NCBI RefSeq assembly: GCF_019565455.1
Contig: NZ_CP067377.1
Coordinates: forward strand, 2,238,001-2,302,000
Source of the DNA: Flavobacterium oreochromis
GTDB taxonomy: Bacteria; Bacteroidota; Bacteroidia; Flavobacteriales; Flavobacteriaceae
Direction: 5' to 3'
Length of the DNA: 64,000 nt
The translations under genes were made by a program, and so were the position numbers. Below the pieces are notes generated by a model. It saw only the letters and a list, made by a program, of their open reading frames with translations. It had not been told where the DNA came from and searched no databases. Shown here piece after piece: positions 27,238 through 35,599 of this stretch. The stretch's first letter is position 1. Each line of letters starts with the position of its first letter.

Positions 27238-29359
27238 ATGAAAAAACTTAAAATTTCTATTTTCTTATTATCTTTTTATCTATTGTAACTAATGCACAAG
27301 AAAATAAAGGAAAAACAAATGAACTGAAAGAGGTTGCAATTGTTAAAGAAAAAAAAGCAATTGAGCAGAAAGCGGATCGTACTATTTTTGAATTTGCAAA
27401 CCAAGCACATTTAAATTCAGGTTCTGTTTTAGAAGGAATGAAAAAGCTTCCGGGGCTAGTTGCTTCCGATGTAGCAGGTATGATGTATCAAGGAAAACAA
27501 TTAGATGTATTTTTAGATGGAAGACCGCTTAATATTTCCACAAATGAATTAAATGCTTTCTTAGAAGGATTACCCGCTAATTCAGTTGAGAAAATAGAAG
27601 TTATAACAAATCCTGGAGCTGAATTTCCAGCTACTTCTGGTGGAGCAATCCTAAATATTGTTACAAATAAAAAAGCAAAGAATTATTTAACAGCGACCTA
27701 TACTAACAGCAGTAATTTTACTTCTTATGATAAAAATCGTTGGCGCACCAATAATAGCATACTTTTAAGTTCAAAAAATAAATTTTTTGGATGGCAGTTA
27801 AATTTGGGTCAAAACTATGCAGAACGAGGAATGTGGTCTGAAGTATTTAAGAATGAAGGTAATTCATCTATATTATTAAATTCTAGTAATGCAGATCGTG
27901 TTTTGAGGACACTTTTTGCAAAAACAGGAATTACATTTGATATAGGTAAAAATAGATTATTGCTTAATTATGATATTTATTCCAATAATAATACCAGTAC
28001 AACAGATGCTATAGGATTATTGCCTAATTCTACGTTTTTTTCTACCATAGATGACAGTAAAACTCTAACATTACGTCAAGATGCAGTAGCTACTTATCAA
28101 ATGAGGTTTGATGATTCTAGCAAAAAACTAGATTTTAAATTCAACTTTAATAGTGTTTCTACAGATTTTGATTTGTTTTCAAGAAACTTAAATTTAAATA
28201 CATTAAGTAATGGATCTGATCAGCGTCTTTATAATTTTAAAATAGACTATAATCAGCCCATAAAATTATTAGAAGAAGGAAAAATTAGTATAGGGACTTT
28301 GTATGAAGAACTCTATTTTAATACATTTAGTAAAAATGTAAATAATTTAGAATATAAAAGAATGACGGCTTCTACTTACGCAGAGTTGCAGACCAAGTAT
28401 AAAAATTTGAATTTACTCTAGGACTAAGAGGAGAAAATTATGATATTTCAGGAAAAGCAGAGACACAACCTTTAATTCCTTTTAAGCAATATAGACTATT
28501 TCCTAATGGAAGTATTCAATATAGTTTAGCTAATAAAATAGTCTTATCAGGAAGTTATAATAAAAAAATAACATTACCGAGTACATCTGCACTTAATCCA
28601 AATAATACTAATTATCAAAACCCAAATGTAGGATATTTAGGAAATCCACAGTTACAACCTACACTTTTTAATAATTATGAATTTAAATTATCAGTTTTTG
28701 AATATGCTTTTATAGGATATAACATAAGTGAAGGATTAAATCAAGTGGCGCAACGAATGTATTTGAATGGAAATAAAATGGTGAATACTAATGAAAATAT
28801 TTCTTCAATGAAGATTCATACTTTTAATTTAGGTTTACCTATTCCTTACATGTTGTTTACAAAAGGGTTAAAAGAAACAGCTAAATTCAATTTTAATCCA
28901 GATAAAATTAATTTTATGTTTGTTTATGCAGGTAGACAAAAACATGAAATTTCAGGGGTTGATACTAAAGCATTTTGGATTTTTAATATTATGTCGCAAG
29001 TTGTATTACCAGGTGACATTAAATGGGTTACAAATTATAGCCATATAACAAAAGGAGGAAATTATTTTTATTTTGTGGCACAAAGACCATTTAATCATAG
29101 TTTAGATATGACTTTTTCTAAGAAGTTTTTATCTAACCATTTAACGGTTTCTATAAATGTAGACGACTTATTTAATTTTAACAAAGCATCATTTAATTCT
29201 TTAAATACACCACTTTATATGTCTAATAAAAATGATACTCGTAGAGTTGGATTTACCTTAAATTATAAAATCCCAACTAAGAATAAAATGGCAAAAGAGG
29301 ATCCTAATATGTTAAACAAAGAAAAGAAAGAGGATAATGGGAATATAATAGGGAATTAA
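27238..29359 (+). CDS. TonB-dependent receptor / outer-membrane beta-barrel protein (two frameshifts)
   Basis: Joined length is about 705 residues. A signal peptide (MKKLKISIFLLSF...NAQ) is interrupted by a missing T near 27283. A plug-domain-like part then follows (KLPGLVASDVAGMMYQGKQLDVFLDGRPL, LPANSVEKIEVITNPGAEF, GGAILNIVTN). The rest is a beta-barrel of alternating strands ending FTLNYKIPTK. A second break near 28410 (AAATTTGAATTTAC, one A short) joins KYK to KFEFTLGLRGENY. There is no N-terminal carboxypeptidase-like domain. The charged tail after the barrel is unusual. The ligand is unknown; the preceding histidine kinase may or may not be linked. Confidence 0.8.
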
Positions 29360-29519: not shown

Positions 29520-29924
29520 TTAATTCTTTTTTGAAAATTCTTCTAAATCACTTAAATGAACTCTTAGTGCATGAACTGAAATACTGATTTCCCAAAAAGA
29601 AGTTCCTAAAGATACTAGAAGACTAAATAAACTAAATCCGAAAAGATAAATAGCAATATATTGTAAATTAAAAAATAATAAAAGCATCGAAAAGACGGAT
29701 AGAAATAAGCAAAGGACACCCATTAACTGCATAAAACGGATCAAGGTTAGTCGGTTATTTAAGTTTTGAATTTCAAGAATAATAGATTTATTATGAACCT
29801 CTTCATAATTTTTTTTTAAACTTCTAATAATTTGAGCAATGGTTAAAAATCGATTAGTATAGGCTAATAAAATTAATGAACTAGCTGAAAATAATAATGC
29901 AGGTGTTTCAATTGATAGGGTCAT
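29520..29924 (-). CDS. DUF2721 domain membrane protein
   Basis: 134 residues with three hydrophobic segments (LLFSASSLILLAYTNRFLTI, QLMGVLCLFLSVFSMLLLFF, IYLFGFSLFSLLVSLGTSFW) and a conserved cytoplasmic stretch LNNRLTLIRFMQ. This matches the DUF2721 family of small inner-membrane proteins of unknown role. Confidence 0.75.
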   Translation of the reverse strand: MTLSIETPALLFSASSLILLAYTNRFLTIAQIIRSLKKNYEEVHNKSIILEIQNLNNRLTLIRFMQLMGVLCLFLSVFSMLLLFFNLQYIAIYLFGFSLFSLLVSLGTSFWEISISVHALRVHLSDLEEFSKKN

Positions 29925-30390: not shown

Positions 30391-31314
30391 TTAAATAGAT
30401 TCGTACCAATTAAATTTTTTTTCAATAATATTATGTTTTTCACTTTTTAGATGTTCTAAATAAGCTAATGCAGAAGGGCTATGTTTTTTTCCTTTTAACC
30501 AAATTAAGCTCCAATTAGTTTTTATAGGGAGTCCTTTCACAGAGATAATTTTTAAATTATTATTTTGTATTTCTTTTTGAATACCAATTAAAGGCATGAT
30601 TGAATATCCTAGTCCAGCTAAAAGAGCTTGTTTTACAGCTTCATTAGAAGTTAATTCAAATTTTTTGGCAACATTAATATTGTTGTTTTTAATAAATTGT
30701 TCCATTGTTTGACGTGTTCCAGAACCATTTTCTCTAAAAATTAATGGAAATTTATTAAAGATTTCTTCTGCCGTAATTTGTTGGTCAATATCATTGTCAT
30801 TATTTCCAACTAAATAAAGTTTATTCTGCATTAAATCAATCTTTTCTATTTTTAAATTTTCAGGTAGTATAGAAACTAATGCAAAATCTATTTCATTGCT
30901 TATTAGACTTTTAATTACCTTATTCTTATTAGTAACATCCATTTCAAGTTCTACTCCCATATTTTCTTTTAAGAAATTAGATAAAAAATAAGGCATCACA
31001 TATTTGCCTGTAGATACTACGGAAACTTTTATCTTTCCATATAATTGCCCTTTGTAAGCTAAACTACGATGGTTTATGGCGTTTACTTGTTCTAAAATTT
31101 GTTCAGCAGATTTTGCTATTTCTTTTCCAAAATCAGTTACATAAATTTTTCTTCCAATTACTTCAGTAAGAGGAATATCAAATTGATCTTGGAAATTTTT
31201 TAGTTGTATTGATACGGCTGGTTGTGTTAAATGTAATTCTTCAGAAGCTTTTGTAACACTTTGTAATTGAACTATTTTTAAAAAAATGCTTAATTGGTTT
31301 AAAGTATAATTCAT
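30391..31314 (-). CDS. LysR family transcriptional regulator
   Basis: 307 residues. The N-terminal winged helix-turn-helix (NQLSIFLKIVQLQSVTKASEELHLTQPAVSIQLKNF; recognition part SVTKASEELHLTQPAVS) precedes a periplasmic-binding-like effector domain (about 90-300). It is divergent from the five-gene operon ending in an SbtA transporter. LysR regulators next to SbtA-like or other carbon-uptake genes (CmpR, CcmR, RbcR) respond to carbon metabolites, so control of that operon is a reasonable inference. The effector is unknown. Confidence 0.9.
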   Translation of the reverse strand: MNYTLNQLSIFLKIVQLQSVTKASEELHLTQPAVSIQLKNFQDQFDIPLTEVIGRKIYVTDFGKEIAKSAEQILEQVNAINHRSLAYKGQLYGKIKVSVVSTGKYVMPYFLSNFLKENMGVELEMDVTNKNKVIKSLISNEIDFALVSILPENLKIEKIDLMQNKLYLVGNNDNDIDQQITAEEIFNKFPLIFRENGSGTRQTMEQFIKNNNINVAKKFELTSNEAVKQALLAGLGYSIMPLIGIQKEIQNNNLKIISVKGLPIKTNWSLIWLKGKKHSPSALAYLEHLKSEKHNIIEKKFNWYESI

Positions 31315-31338
31315 AAAAATATTTTATGTGTTTTATAA

Positions 31339-31346
31339 CAAATATA
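31339..31346 (-). promoter_or_regulatory. -7 promoter box of the LysR gene
   Basis: TATATTTG on the minus strand, 25 bases upstream of the LysR ATG, matches TAnnTTTG. The 87-base divergent region also has to hold the operon promoter and any LysR operator; the AT-rich inverted motif ATATAAATAAAAATATATAAAT lies in it. Confidence 0.5.
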
Positions 31347-31401
31347 AATAAAAATATATAAATAAAAGTTCTGAAATTTGTCTTGTGTAAAAAAGTTTAG
31401 T

Positions 31402-31569
31402 ATGAATTCAAAATATTATCAATTAGCACTTGGATTTTTTGTTGTATTAGAAATTTTTTTAATGGTAAATATTTACCTAATAGCAGATTTTCTTATTCAG
31501 CAATTATTTATAGGTCTTTTCATCTTTTTTTTAGTCTTAATTATTCGTTTAATTTCTAATAAAAAATAA
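31402..31569 (+). CDS. Small two-helix membrane protein, first gene of SbtA operon
   Basis: 55 residues from ATG 31402, almost wholly hydrophobic, with two membrane helices (LALGFFVVLEIFLMVNIYLI and FIGLFIFFLVLIIRLI) and a short basic end. It begins the operon and is 7 bases from the next gene. I do not recognise the family; it might be an accessory subunit of the transporter. Confidence 0.5.
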   Translation: MNSKYYQLALGFFVVLEIFLMVNIYLIADFLIQQLFIGLFIFFLVLIIRLISNKK

Positions 31570-31576
31570 ATTAATT

Positions 31577-31858
31577 ATGAAAACAATGATAAAAAGAATT
31601 AACGTAATTAATGATCAATTTACAGTAAATGAAGCAAAAGAAGTTTTATTAGATTATATAAGTAAAAGCATAAAACGAAATAAAATTGAAAACTTTAGTT
31701 CACAAATTCGATTGGGAATTGATGACGAAAAAGCTTTAAATAGAATTGAACATTTAAAAGCACAATTAGATAGTTTAAGCACATTTTTAAAAGAAGCACA
31801 GTTAAATAATAAAACCCTTAAGATAAAATCTTTTATAGAAATTCAATATGTTGATTAA
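31577..31858 (+). CDS. Small hypothetical protein of SbtA operon
   Basis: 93 residues, mostly helical and charged (NEAKEVLLDYISKSIKRNKIENFSS, ALNRIEHLKAQLDSLSTFLKEAQL), with a C-terminal strand (LKIKSFIEIQYVD). No membrane segment. It does not show the PII-like T-loop pattern of SbtB, the usual SbtA partner. It overlaps the next gene by 11 bases, so the two are translationally coupled. Function unknown. Confidence 0.55.
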   Translation: MKTMIKRINVINDQFTVNEAKEVLLDYISKSIKRNKIENFSSQIRLGIDDEKALNRIEHLKAQLDSLSTFLKEAQLNNKTLKIKSFIEIQYVD

Positions 31859-32702
31859 TCAAGATTATTTTAAAAGTAGAAAATTGTTAGTTGTTTCTAA
31901 GCATAAGAAAGAACAAGTTATAGCTCCCATAGTTGAAAAAGAATTAGGAGTTACAGTTTTTACTTCTCAACTTTTTGATACTGATTCTTTAGGAACATTT
32001 ACAGGAGAAATAAATAGACAAAATAGTGCTCTGAATACAGTTAGGAAAAAGTGCGTAGAAGCTATGAAATTAGAAGGTTATGATTTAGCTATTGCTACGG
32101 AAGGATCTTTTGGTAATCATCCCAATATATTTTATGCTTGCGCAAATGAAGAAATTATAATGTTAAAGGATTTAAAAAATAATATTGAAATAGTAGAAAA
32201 GGTCTTAAGTTTTGTTACCAATTTTGGTTCTGCTAGAGTTAATAATAAATCTGAACTTAAAAATTTCTTACATAGAGTAGATTTTCCAACACATCGCATT
32301 ATTTTAAAAGCAGCTGAAAAGGATTTTAAAAATATGGTTAAAGGAATTAATAATAGAAAAGAATTAATGAGTCATTTTTATAATTTTCTACCTATAAATG
32401 GTTATTGTTTTATAGAAACAGATATGCGAGCTTGTTATAATCCTAAAAGGATGAAAGTAATAGAAGAAGCGACATTAAAATTGATTAATAAAATAAAAAA
32501 TGTTTGTCCAATATGTTCCTTCCCTGGTTATGGAATTGTAGATTTAGCCAAAGGTTTACCTTGTGGTTGGTGTAAAAGTCCGACAGATTCCATTCTTTAT
32601 TATGTTTATAAATGTGCTAATTGTCATTATCGACAGAAAATTATGTATCCAAAAGGGACTAAAGAAGAAGATCCAATGTATTGTAATAAATGTAATCCAT
32701 AA
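31848..32702 (+). CDS. DUF6671 family protein with C-terminal zinc ribbon
   Basis: 284 residues. The N-terminal part (KHKKEQVIAPIVEKELGV, LGTFTGEI, AIATEGSFGNHPNIF) and middle (CFIETDMRACYNPKRMKVIEEATLKL) match DUF6671 as I remember it. The C-terminus has four cysteine pairs, CPIC, CGWC, CANC and CNKC, which must bind zinc. No catalytic role is established for the family. It sits 2 bases before the Sua5 gene. Confidence 0.7.
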   Translation: MLINQDYFKSRKLLVVSKHKKEQVIAPIVEKELGVTVFTSQLFDTDSLGTFTGEINRQNSALNTVRKKCVEAMKLEGYDLAIATEGSFGNHPNIFYACANEEIIMLKDLKNNIEIVEKVLSFVTNFGSARVNNKSELKNFLHRVDFPTHRIILKAAEKDFKNMVKGINNRKELMSHFYNFLPINGYCFIETDMRACYNPKRMKVIEEATLKLINKIKNVCPICSFPGYGIVDLAKGLPCGWCKSPTDSILYYVYKCANCHYRQKIMYPKGTKEEDPMYCNKCNP

Positions 32703-32704
32703 TA

Positions 32705-33658
32705 ATGATAACACAAGATATAAATAGAGTAATTAAAATATTAGAAAACCAAGGTGTAATAGGTTTACCTACTGAAACGGTATATGGATTAGGAGGATCC
32801 CTTTTTTCTGATAAAGCTATTCGTGAAATTTATTCAATAAAAAATAGACCTTTTGAAAATCCCTTAATTGTACATATCTCTAATAAAGATAGGATAGTAG
32901 AATTAGTTACATTAATTCCTGATGAAATTCAGGTTTTGATAAATGCTTTTTCTCCTGGACCTATTACTTTTTTATTACCCAAAAACCATAAAGTTTCTTC
33001 TCTAGTTACAGCAGGAAAATCGAATGTAGCAATTAGAATACCTTCTCATCCATTAGCTCAAGAACTGCTTACTAAATTAGATTTTCCTTTAGTAGCACCT
33101 AGTGCTAATCCGTTTCAGCGAGTTAGTCCTGTAACAGCACAACAAGTAGAAAATTATTTTTCAAATGAAAAAGTAGTAGTGCTGGACGGAGGGTTAGCCA
33201 GTTGTGGTATTGAGTCAACAATAGTAGGTTATGAAAAAGGAAAGGTTGTCTTGTTTAGAGAAGGATATATTACATTAAAAAAAATTGAAAATGTATTAAA
33301 TGATTCCATAATAAATAAAACCAAAAGGAAAGAGATTGAAGCTCCAGGAATGTATAAAAGGCACTATGCTCCCTCTTGTCCGCTTATAATAGCACAAGAT
33401 ATAGAAAAAGAAGTTCTAAGGTGGAAAAATAAAAAGATAGGGGTTTTGTTGTTAGAGTCTAAAACAGATGATGAAAAAGATTGTTTTGTAATCAGCTTAT
33501 CAAAAAAAGGAAATACAAAAGAAGCTCTGTCTAATTTATATAACGCGTTACATATTTTAGAAAATCAAAAAATAGATATCATAATCACTCATTTATTTCC
33601 TAATGATGAATATGGTAGTATTATAAATGAAAGATTATTAAAAGCTAGTTACAAATGA
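32705..33658 (+). CDS. L-threonylcarbamoyladenylate synthase, Sua5 type
   Basis: 317 residues. The YrdC domain (1-205) has GLPTETVYGLGG, NRPFENPLIVH and SNVAIRIPSHPLAQ, and the substrate-closing region APSANPFQRVSPVTAQQV. The linker PGMYKRHYAP and a C-terminal Sua5 domain (220-317) follow, so it is the long Sua5 form, not short TsaC. The family condenses threonine, bicarbonate and ATP to threonylcarbamoyl-AMP for tRNA t6A37. Its stop overlaps the start of the SbtA gene (ATGA), placing a bicarbonate user beside a bicarbonate transporter. Confidence 0.9.
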   Translation: MITQDINRVIKILENQGVIGLPTETVYGLGGSLFSDKAIREIYSIKNRPFENPLIVHISNKDRIVELVTLIPDEIQVLINAFSPGPITFLLPKNHKVSSLVTAGKSNVAIRIPSHPLAQELLTKLDFPLVAPSANPFQRVSPVTAQQVENYFSNEKVVVLDGGLASCGIESTIVGYEKGKVVLFREGYITLKKIENVLNDSIINKTKRKEIEAPGMYKRHYAPSCPLIIAQDIEKEVLRWKNKKIGVLLLESKTDDEKDCFVISLSKKGNTKEALSNLYNALHILENQKIDIIITHLFPNDEYGSIINERLLKASYK

Positions 33659-34607
33659 ATCTAGAATTATTATTTGACAATTTATCAAATCCTGCATTGT
33701 TGTTTTTGTACTAGGTTTGATCGCTGTTTTTTTTAAAAGTGACCTTGAAATACCGCAAAATTCATCAAAATTTATATCACTTTATTTATTATTTTCTATA
33801 GGTTTTAAAGGAGGGCAGGAATTATCACATAGTCACTTTACACTACAAATAGCTTGGTGTATTTTGTTTGGAATCATAATGGCCATTCTTATTCCTTTGT
33901 ATACTTTTTTTATTTTAAAAACAAAACTTAATATATATGATTCGGGAGCCATTGCGGCTTCTTACGGTTCTGTTAGTGCAGTGACATTTGTAACAGCAAT
34001 ATCGTTTTTAGAAATGCAAAATATAGCTTATAATGGTTATATGGTAGCTGTAATGGCATTAATGGAAGCTCCTGCTATAATAATAGGAGTATTCTTAGTT
34101 AATTATTTTAATTCTCAAAAAAATAAAATAAAATTATTAGATATGCTTAAGCATTCATTTACTAATGGAAGTGTATTATTAATAATAGGTAGTTTAATTA
34201 TTGGGTTGTTAACTAGTGATAAGCAAGCACTAGGGATTAAACCTTTTACAAATGATTTATTCAAAGGATTTTTAGCAATTTTTTTATTAGATATGGGGAT
34301 TTCAAGTGGTAAAAAAATTCAATCTTTAATTAATAATGGTTGGTTTACACTCTTGTTTGCTATAGTTATCCCTGTAATTAATGGAACAGTGGTGGCATAT
34401 CTATCACAGTTTGTGTGTTCTGAAATGGGTAATAGACTTTTAATGTCAGTATTAGCAGCCAGTGCTTCTTATATAGCAGTGCCTGCGGCAGTTAAAATAG
34501 CGATACCAAAAGCTAATCCTGGTTTATTTGTTCCTATGGCATTAGCTATAACATTTCCCATAAATATAACGATAGGAATTCCCATTTTTTATTTCATAAT
34601 TAGTTAA
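33656..34607 (+). CDS. SbtA-type sodium-dependent bicarbonate transporter (one frameshift)
   Basis: Begins at ATG 33656 inside the upstream stop codon (MNLELLFDNLSNPALLF), loses one T in a T5 run near 33712 and continues VLGLIAVFFKSDLEIPQNSSKF. The joined length is about 317 residues with ten hydrophobic segments. Conserved SbtA (DUF897) features are LPIPQ-like acidic start, FSIGFKGGQEL, AIAASYGSVSAVTFV, MALMEAPAIIIG and AASASYIAVPAAVKIA. Cyanobacterial SbtA imports HCO3- with Na+. Transport of another small anion is possible in a non-photosynthetic bacterium. Confidence 0.85.
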
Positions 34608-34618
34608 TTTATTTGATT

Positions 34619-34653
34619 AAAAACCTGTCAGATGTCATCCCTGGCAGGTTTTG
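34619..34653 (+). terminator. Rho-independent terminator of SbtA operon
   Basis: Stem AAACCTGTCAG/CTGGCAGGTTT with one wobble pair, a 9-base loop and a short T tail, 12 bases after the stop. Confidence 0.75.
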
Positions 34654-34964: not shown

Positions 34965-35396
34965 ATGGCAGATTCTTATTCTAAAAAAGAAAATAATAAG
35001 AAAAAAATAAAAAAACAACAAGATAAAGAGCTTAGAAGAACTGAGCGTAAAGCAAATAATAATAAAGGGAAATCTTTAGAGGAGATGTTTGTTTACGTTG
35101 ATAAAAATGGAAATTTAACCTCTGTGCCACCTCATTTACAAGTCCTTGAAGTAGAAAAGAATAATGAGAAGACTAATGAAAGCTCAAGTGTAAAAAGAAA
35201 AGATTTTTCTACAGGTATTGTTACTTTTATAAAAGATACTGGTTTTGGATTTATTACGGAGGATCAAACTAGGGATAATTTATTATTTCATTTTGAAGGA
35301 GGAAATACAAAATTTAAAAAGAATACAAGAGTAAGTTTTAAAAAAGAAACGACTCCTAAAGGTTTCAGAGCCACACATGTCGTAATTATTAATTAA
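34965..35396 (+). CDS. Cold-shock-domain protein with basic N-terminal extension
   Basis: 143 residues. Residues 1-35 are Lys/Asn/Arg-rich and probably disordered (KKENNKKKIKKQQDKELRR). A linker follows, then a cold-shock domain at about 78-143, with the RNP1-like motif TGFGFITED, RNP2-like LLFHFEG and the end TPKGFRATHVVI. RNP2 reads LFHF where canonical Csp has IFVH. The basic tail suggests nucleic-acid binding or ribosome association. It lies 14 bases upstream of a canonical Csp gene. Confidence 0.8.
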   Translation: MADSYSKKENNKKKIKKQQDKELRRTERKANNNKGKSLEEMFVYVDKNGNLTSVPPHLQVLEVEKNNEKTNESSSVKRKDFSTGIVTFIKDTGFGFITEDQTRDNLLFHFEGGNTKFKKNTRVSFKKETTPKGFRATHVVIIN

Positions 35397-35410: not shown

Positions 35411-35599
35411 ATGCAAGAAGGTACAGTAAAATTTTTTAATGAAACAAAAGGTTTTGGATTTATTACTTCTAATGATGGACAAGAAATTTTTGTTCACACT
35501 ACAGGTTTAACACAACGTGTGAGAGAAAATGACGTAGTAGTTTTTGAGGTAGAGCGTACACCTAAAGGACTAGCTGCTATTAACGTGAAAAGAAAATAA
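35411..35599 (+). CDS. Cold-shock protein, CspA family
   Basis: 62 residues with the complete oligonucleotide-binding fold: GTVKFFNETKGFGFITSNDG (RNP1 KGFGFI), EIFVHTTGL (RNP2 IFVH) and the TPKGLAAINVKRK end. Binds single-stranded RNA/DNA as a chaperone. Probably co-transcribed with the preceding cold-shock-domain gene. Confidence 0.92.
   Translation: MQEGTVKFFNETKGFGFITSNDGQEIFVHTTGLTQRVRENDVVVFEVERTPKGLAAINVKRK

Follow-up and report, generated by a model that had tools for sequence, protein, structure and literature searches.

A possible CO2-sparing regulon in heterotrophic Bacteroidota, built around SbtA, Sua5 and DUF6671

We analyzed a 64,000-nucleotide stretch of the Flavobacterium oreochromis genome (contig NZ_CP067377.1, positions 2,238,001 to 2,302,000, part of one 3.54 Mb contig; hereafter the window), in which a divergent LysR gene borders five closely packed genes that end in an SbtA-type permease and form a putative inorganic-carbon (Ci) shortage operon. 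ORF reading and Pfam and NCBIfam profile matches bore out the positions, narrow gaps and family names that the original prediction, made from the sequence letters alone, had given to this block. The LysR-type regulator (30391-31314, reverse strand) is a 307 amino acid protein matching PF00126 and PF03466. The divergent intergenic region holds a conserved operator, TTATG-N6-ATAACAAATATAAATAAAAATATAT (31324-31359, forward strand, as are all features that follow), at a fixed spacing from the LysR start, and a -7-like box, GAAATTTG (31373-31380), whose TTTG is shared, at the same spacing, by 80% or more of 63 aligned loci; the Bacteroidota -7 box has the consensus TAnnTTTG. Since operator and box define the upstream end, a TTG start giving 63 residues is improbable for the first gene, and ORF reading from the likely start, ATG 31402, gives a small two-helix membrane protein of 55 amino acids (31402-31569). 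The second ORF (31577-31858) encodes p93, a small protein conserved at SbtA and DabB loci, and overlaps by 11 bases with the gene for a DUF6671 protein (31848-32702; PF20376 far over cut-off). Next comes a Sua5-type threonylcarbamoyl-AMP (TC-AMP) synthase with a Sua5_C domain (32705-33658; PF01300 and PF03481 far over cut-off), followed by the SbtA permease (33655-34607; PF05982, E = 7.7e-110), whose frame shifts after 19 codons. The predicted ATGA overlap of these two genes was recovered (SbtA ATG at 33655, Sua5 end at 33658). A terminator-like hairpin, ACCTGTCAG...CTGGCAGGT, then TTT, was recognized by eye behind SbtA (34623-34652).

A genome search with PF05982 identified SbtA as a single copy in the window genome and as a full permease (E = 1.1e-112, profile positions 3-307 of 308), which would carry out Na+-dependent bicarbonate transport. 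The SbtA of a relative (L055) matches cyanobacterial SbtA (slr1512; PDB 7cye and four more entries) in two stretches that cover most of its length. In Flavobacteriia, sbtA is described as enriched in proteorhodopsin-bearing marine members (PMC5932025).

We performed profile scans of a family sample (199 genomes, window genome included) and a genus sample (249 genomes), both of which contain partly incomplete genomes. SbtA was present in 32 of the 199 family genomes (31 over cut-off and one weak match counted) and DUF6671 in 4. The genus sample contained DUF6671 in 74 genomes, SbtA in 87 and both in 70; SbtA lies at most 6 kb downstream of DUF6671 on the same strand in 63 of the 74, with a gap that by its length alone is Sua5-sized in 49 and two-gene-sized in 12. 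Four DUF6671 genomes have no SbtA, and in seven the two genes are apart, some on different draft contigs. The gene order, whose conservation had been proposed as a check, is thus retained, and both the arrangement and its operator are found again in other genera and families of Bacteroidota.

A scan of GTDB genome contigs for DUF6671 identified at least 203 loci, and the best 80 of them, which are not a random draw and some of which end at contig ends, were kept for comparison. SbtA (45 loci), Sua5 (47) and dihydroorotase (DHOase; 42) were identified by tblastn, and further neighbors included the isocitrate dehydrogenase family (28; the one copy tested exceeds the TIGR02924 cut-off), beta-carbonic anhydrase (12) and SulP (6), the latter two checked by Pfam in one case each. 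The composite order reads LysR (divergent), isocitrate dehydrogenase, small membrane protein, p93, DUF6671, Sua5, DHOase and SbtA, and most loci of relatives, like the window, hold a subset of it. A DHOase-Sua5-DUF6671 block stands in nine loci (L072, L075, L078, L088, L092, L100, L102, L104 and L117); SbtA precedes it in L117, and none was found in the available stretch of the other eight. Two metagenome-assembled genome (MAG) records labelled Sphingomonadales (L066) and Bifidobacterium breve (L109) carry an otherwise Bacteroidota operon and are perhaps mislabelled or contaminated bins.

DHOase, an enzyme of pyrimidine synthesis, occurs in the operons of many relatives in a form that does not seem to require CO2. 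Every one of the 40 genomes searched, the window genome included, has one or more DHOases above the PRK09236 cut-off, and the best copy, read in 30 of the 40, carries the lysine of GxK[LI]F or a near form in every case. This lysine aligns with a lysine of Escherichia coli AllB that is carboxylated. None of the 42 DUF6671-linked DHOases has it; instead they show TDDG (21 copies) or SDDG (21 copies), with the other DHOase motifs in place (VHFR[ED]PG in 42, H[SC]E in 41 and HAE in one, TDH[AS]PH in 42). In a tree, the 42 linked copies form one branch apart from the lysine-bearing copies (support 100/99), so a single loss of the lysine seems likely within the set compared. A linked TDDG motif aligns with that of the lysine-free, mononuclear DHOase of Aquifex, in which Asp153 binds zinc and stands near the position that the carboxylated lysine takes in the E. 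coli enzyme, although the lysine is shifted in sequence (PMC3880350). Unlike the Aquifex enzyme, the linked copies form one clade among lysine-bearing enzymes of Bacteroidota, and the one copy tested matches PRK09236, so that the Asp-type DHOase seems to have arisen again.

A DNA-motif scan of the 249 genus genomes for the lysine-free DHOase, not anchored on DUF6671 and using an exact motif that misses variants, gave 25 matches in 23 genomes, against 14 for the reversed pattern. Sorted by eye, 16 of them are DHOases (ORFs of about 450 amino acids with a DHOase-like start and motif surroundings) and nine are chance matches in ORFs of 13-69 amino acids. The 16 DHOases occur in 15 genomes, all of which contain SbtA, and 15 of the 16 stand beside SbtA and/or DUF6671: 11 between DUF6671 and SbtA, two directly behind SbtA, with DUF6671 further upstream, one beside DUF6671 and one beside SbtA only; the last is unlinked.

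With regard to regulation, the window LysR resembles the CbbR-type regulators of carbon uptake genes, which, like it, are encoded divergently with an operator; CmpR and NdhR are further LysR regulators of carbon uptake. The likeness concerns the gene and is distant: among the 25 of 61 NCBIfam matches listed, the CbbR model is second-best at 165.5 bits against a cut-off of 450, and all models listed fall below their own cut-offs. A divergent LysR accompanies SbtA in 27 of 29 loci of other genomes, and in one more (G166, L138) it lies just beyond the stretch. The same sequence stands upstream of LysR, at the same distance, in most of the 63 LysR loci of the SbtA and DUF6671 sets and of the 16 LysR loci of the p93 set; a few loci differ (e.g., L016, L038, L119 and L138).

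A 20-base operator core, with up to two mismatches, had 85 matches in 2.17 Mb of fetched, partly overlapping sequence, 69 of them beside an annotated LysR, and one shuffle of the core gave a single match. Because this sequence had been chosen around the genes in question, a scan of whole genomes is the better test: it identified 45 sites in 38 of the 199 family genomes (one with the reversed pattern), and 36 of these 38 genomes are among the 47 that have SbtA or p93 (9.0 expected), with at least one site at an SbtA or p93 locus in 33 of the 36. The window genome has one copy, at window position 31335. Within the module, a few extra copies precede p93, carbonic anhydrase or DabB, and in L100 a copy with two mismatches precedes an isocitrate dehydrogenase upstream of DHOase-Sua5-DUF6671.

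The p93 family is not confined to SbtA loci. It is present in 25 of the 29 SbtA loci and in 42 of the 199 family genomes, together with SbtA in 27 (6.8 expected) and without it in 15. Eighteen p93 loci lie away from SbtA, three of them in genomes with SbtA elsewhere, and 13 of the 18 have a DabB-like gene beside p93, and 11 of these 13 also show LysR in the stretch; DabA (PF10070) follows DabB in both loci checked, and the operator of the SbtA loci is present at p93-DabB loci as well. Hence p93, in most cases together with LysR, accompanies carbon uptake genes of two kinds that are unrelated to each other, and the steadiest core consists of LysR, p93 (often with the small membrane protein) and either SbtA or DabB. 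In many relatives, small hydrophobic ORFs occupy the place of the membrane protein, a likeness of position and hydrophobicity rather than demonstrated homology. Two p93 copies occur in L035, L032, L133, L135 and L053.

The partner of cyanobacterial SbtA is the PII-like protein SbtB, and the original prediction had offered p93 or DUF6671 as its stand-in. Among the operon proteins, to which the search for SbtB was confined, there is no Pfam PII match, and the p93 of the operon has a different predicted fold. Its model (pLDDT 95.2) has a strand-helix-helix-strand order that departs from the order generally known for PII, and fold comparison gave no clear relative, which argues against the substitution. 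The same role is unlikely for DUF6671, given a predicted fold like Ham1/YjjX and its occurrence without SbtA nearby. The DUF6671 model comprises a core that shares the fold of the Ham1/YjjX/Maf nucleotide pyrophosphatases, an ATP-grasp-like insert (residues 126-194) and a cysteine-rich C-terminus. Alignment by hhalign with single E. coli YjjX and RdgB sequences, with YggS as control, gave no convincing match, and a sequence search of the PDB with the DUF6671 and p93 profiles returned only zinc-finger or chance matches.

The operon Sua5 scores 168.9 bits against TIGR00057 (cut-off 123.2) and has the KxR, SxN and HYxP motifs, whose roles we take from general knowledge of the family; KxRP, PSAN and HYxP are conserved in all 40 alignment rows, one gene being counted twice. 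The proposed check for another Sua5/TsaC in the genome found one: a 188 amino acid TC-AMP synthase over the TIGR00057 cut-off, in addition to a frame-shifted YrdC-family gene. Among the 39 genomes with DUF6671 loci, PF01300 has at least three matches in 32, two in six and one in one, although many-contig assemblies may count fragments. Sua5_C is present in 25 of the 199 family genomes, 16 of which also have SbtA (4.0 expected), not adjacent in 14 of the 16. This co-occurrence is not a matter of linkage only, since in 23 of the 25 genomes with Sua5_C the surroundings of the long Sua5 showed no SbtA; common ancestry could explain part of it. In the Sua5 tree the module copies do not form one clade (nine changes over 40 rows) and the window Sua5 is a long branch of uncertain place; because these copies are scattered, the operon was probably reassembled or moved more than once.

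Taken together, we consider it reasonably probable that the block is a Ci-shortage operon of a heterotroph, which joins bicarbonate import to isozymes for CO2-linked steps. A role in Ci supply is indicated by the SbtA-type transporter, by the carbonic anhydrase and SulP neighbors, and by the p93, LysR and operator shared with DabAB; a role in CO2 shortage is indicated by the linked DHOase, which lost just the lysine expected to be carboxylated by CO2 and provides the strongest single hint. The payload has to do with CO2 chemistry in general: Sua5 uses bicarbonate, for which the human enzymes have a Km of 13-31 mM (PMC5951830), DHOases of the usual kind bear a carboxylated lysine, and isocitrate dehydrogenase yields CO2. 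At low Ci, the CbbR-like LysR would bind the conserved operator and switch on SbtA and thereby bicarbonate import, and the second Sua5 would keep synthesis of the tRNA modification t6A going. The fuller operons of relatives would add a DHOase without the CO2-carboxylated lysine and an isocitrate dehydrogenase that releases CO2. For p93 and the small membrane protein we propose a part in the working or the control of the carbon transporter, and for DUF6671 that of a nucleotide-acting payload enzyme. More tentatively, and with less confidence than in the operon itself, we suggest a CO2-sparing regulon in heterotrophic Bacteroidota, in which one LysR and its operator would govern bicarbonate uptake together with isozymes tolerant of CO2 shortage, namely a re-evolved carboxylysine-free DHOase, a second t6A enzyme and the Ham1-like DUF6671.

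Several observations weigh against a CO2-shortage role. The window operon has neither DHOase nor isocitrate dehydrogenase, and the DNA-motif scan found no match to the lysine-free DHOase motif in the window genome; the CO2-sparing argument therefore rests on relatives. Carboxylation of the housekeeping lysine by CO2 is itself presumed from AllB and from the DHOases of E. coli and CAD. In one Roseivirga MAG (G235, L113), outside the 30 genomes whose best copy was read, a single DHOase exceeds the PRK09236 cut-off, and its score (628.7 bits) is like that of the linked copies, so that the linked type may be the main DHOase there and not a spare. DHOase lies upstream of DUF6671 in 19 loci, of which 18 have no SbtA found in the available stretch and only one (L100) has an operator-like site; payload and transporter are therefore separable. 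Ten of the 45 operator sites are away from both SbtA and p93. Because Sua5 itself still requires bicarbonate, an extra copy would bring no saving without a difference in affinity or amount, and in the human study one cytoplasmic tRNA kept its t6A without CO2 (PMC5951830). Isocitrate dehydrogenase fits only loosely, the role of DUF6671 is a proposal, and the expected co-occurrence values are a guide only, since related genomes are not independent.

The state of SbtA itself also has to be weighed. Three-frame reading showed that the frame from ATG 33655 stops after 19 codons and that the remainder lies in another frame; the automatic ORF begins only at 33717. SbtA is open across the whole PF05982 match in the 29 other family loci fetched. 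Two further genes of the same genome carry the same kind of single shift, an outer-membrane beta-barrel-like gene at window 27438-29359 and a YrdC-family paralogue, perhaps of the YciO type (C1:3378789-3379321), and for this reason the break is probably an assembly error, which is likelier than a dead gene but unproven. The shift in the outer-membrane gene suggests assembly errors in the region around SbtA.

The original prediction had proposed a module that ties bicarbonate supply to t6A. A conserved SbtA/Sua5/DUF6671/LysR module and a spare Sua5 do exist; restriction to t6A did not hold, as relatives add isocitrate dehydrogenase and a lysine-free DHOase. As an explanation in its own right, such a module, in which SbtA feeds Sua5, t6A reports or depends on bicarbonate, and DHOase and isocitrate dehydrogenase are later unrelated additions, appears unlikely to us. 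It would account for the adjacency or near-adjacency of Sua5 and SbtA in many loci and for the co-occurrence of SbtA and Sua5_C even when apart, and human mitochondrial t6A synthesis is described as bicarbonate-limited, with a bicarbonate Km of 31 mM, and of 13 mM for TC-AMP formation (PMC5951830). However, SbtA often occurs without the long Sua5 (32 SbtA genomes and 25 Sua5_C genomes, 16 with both), and among the best 80 DUF6671 loci DHOase (42) and isocitrate dehydrogenase (28) are too frequent for passengers.

An equally improbable alternative is a small-molecule or repair pathway in which Sua5, DUF6671 and a DHOase-like amidohydrolase would successively convert a compound that is carbamoylated or a nucleotide, and the SbtA relative would move its anion. 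The existence of the DHOase-Sua5-DUF6671 block without SbtA nearby, the pyrophosphatase-like fold predicted for DUF6671 and the acyl-AMP nature of the Sua5 product, as commonly known, are consistent with it, but the retention of the Sua5 motifs, and of the DHOase motifs other than the lysine, speaks against it, as does the presence of p93, LysR and operator at loci of the DabAB carbon uptake system. That the genes are housekeeping neighbors by chance in one lineage is hardly credible: the rarity of DUF6671 in the family sample, and one other genome of the same genus in that sample without SbtA, p93, DUF6671 or Sua5_C, are in its favor, but the conservation counts already contradict it, as the arrangement and the operator are shared by several genera and families. 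We retain the Ci-shortage operon as the preferred reading.

Compared with DAB (DabA/DabB, MpsAB) operons, the locus is alike in p93, LysR and operator, which there precede DabB (DabA is present in both loci checked), and unlike in having SbtA as transporter and in carrying enzymes in the operon. The Zur regulon, as generally known, offers a parallel in its zinc-sparing isozymes, a stress operon replacing a cofactor-dependent enzyme with an independent paralogue, but here the spared item would be CO2, as carboxylysine, and not zinc. How non-photosynthetic bacteria satisfy their need for CO2 has been treated as a question of supply, met by carbonic anhydrase and MpsAB/DAB, and the MpsAB work reports a heterotroph that requires such carbon uptake in air (both in PMC6689103). 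The present operon suggests a demand side, with extra enzymes matched to low CO2, and thereby a so far undescribed strategy by which non-photosynthetic bacteria may withstand a lack of CO2; if true, a CO2-sparing regulon would parallel the zinc-sparing response, with CO2 in the place of zinc. Failure of carboxylysine enzymes at low CO2 in vivo, and dependence of bacterial t6A on bicarbonate as in human mitochondria, become testable, DUF6671 and p93 gain a functional setting, and a regulator and an operator can be named. Among open-licence PMC articles we found neither DUF6671, nor SbtA together with Sua5, nor a dihydroorotase with a bicarbonate transporter and LysR.

Finally, the ten operator-like sites distant from SbtA and p93 lie in G044 (C3), G145 (C4 and C11), G132 (C2), G047 (C112), G182 (C21), G180 (C30), G191 (C3), G147 (C26) and G006 (C23), and are possibly further targets of the regulator or chance matches. 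In the window, two cold-shock-domain genes stand in tandem directly downstream of the operon (34965-35396 and 35411-35599), and a DUF2721 membrane protein (29520-29924) adjoins LysR, with relatives near the module in loci L112 and L118.

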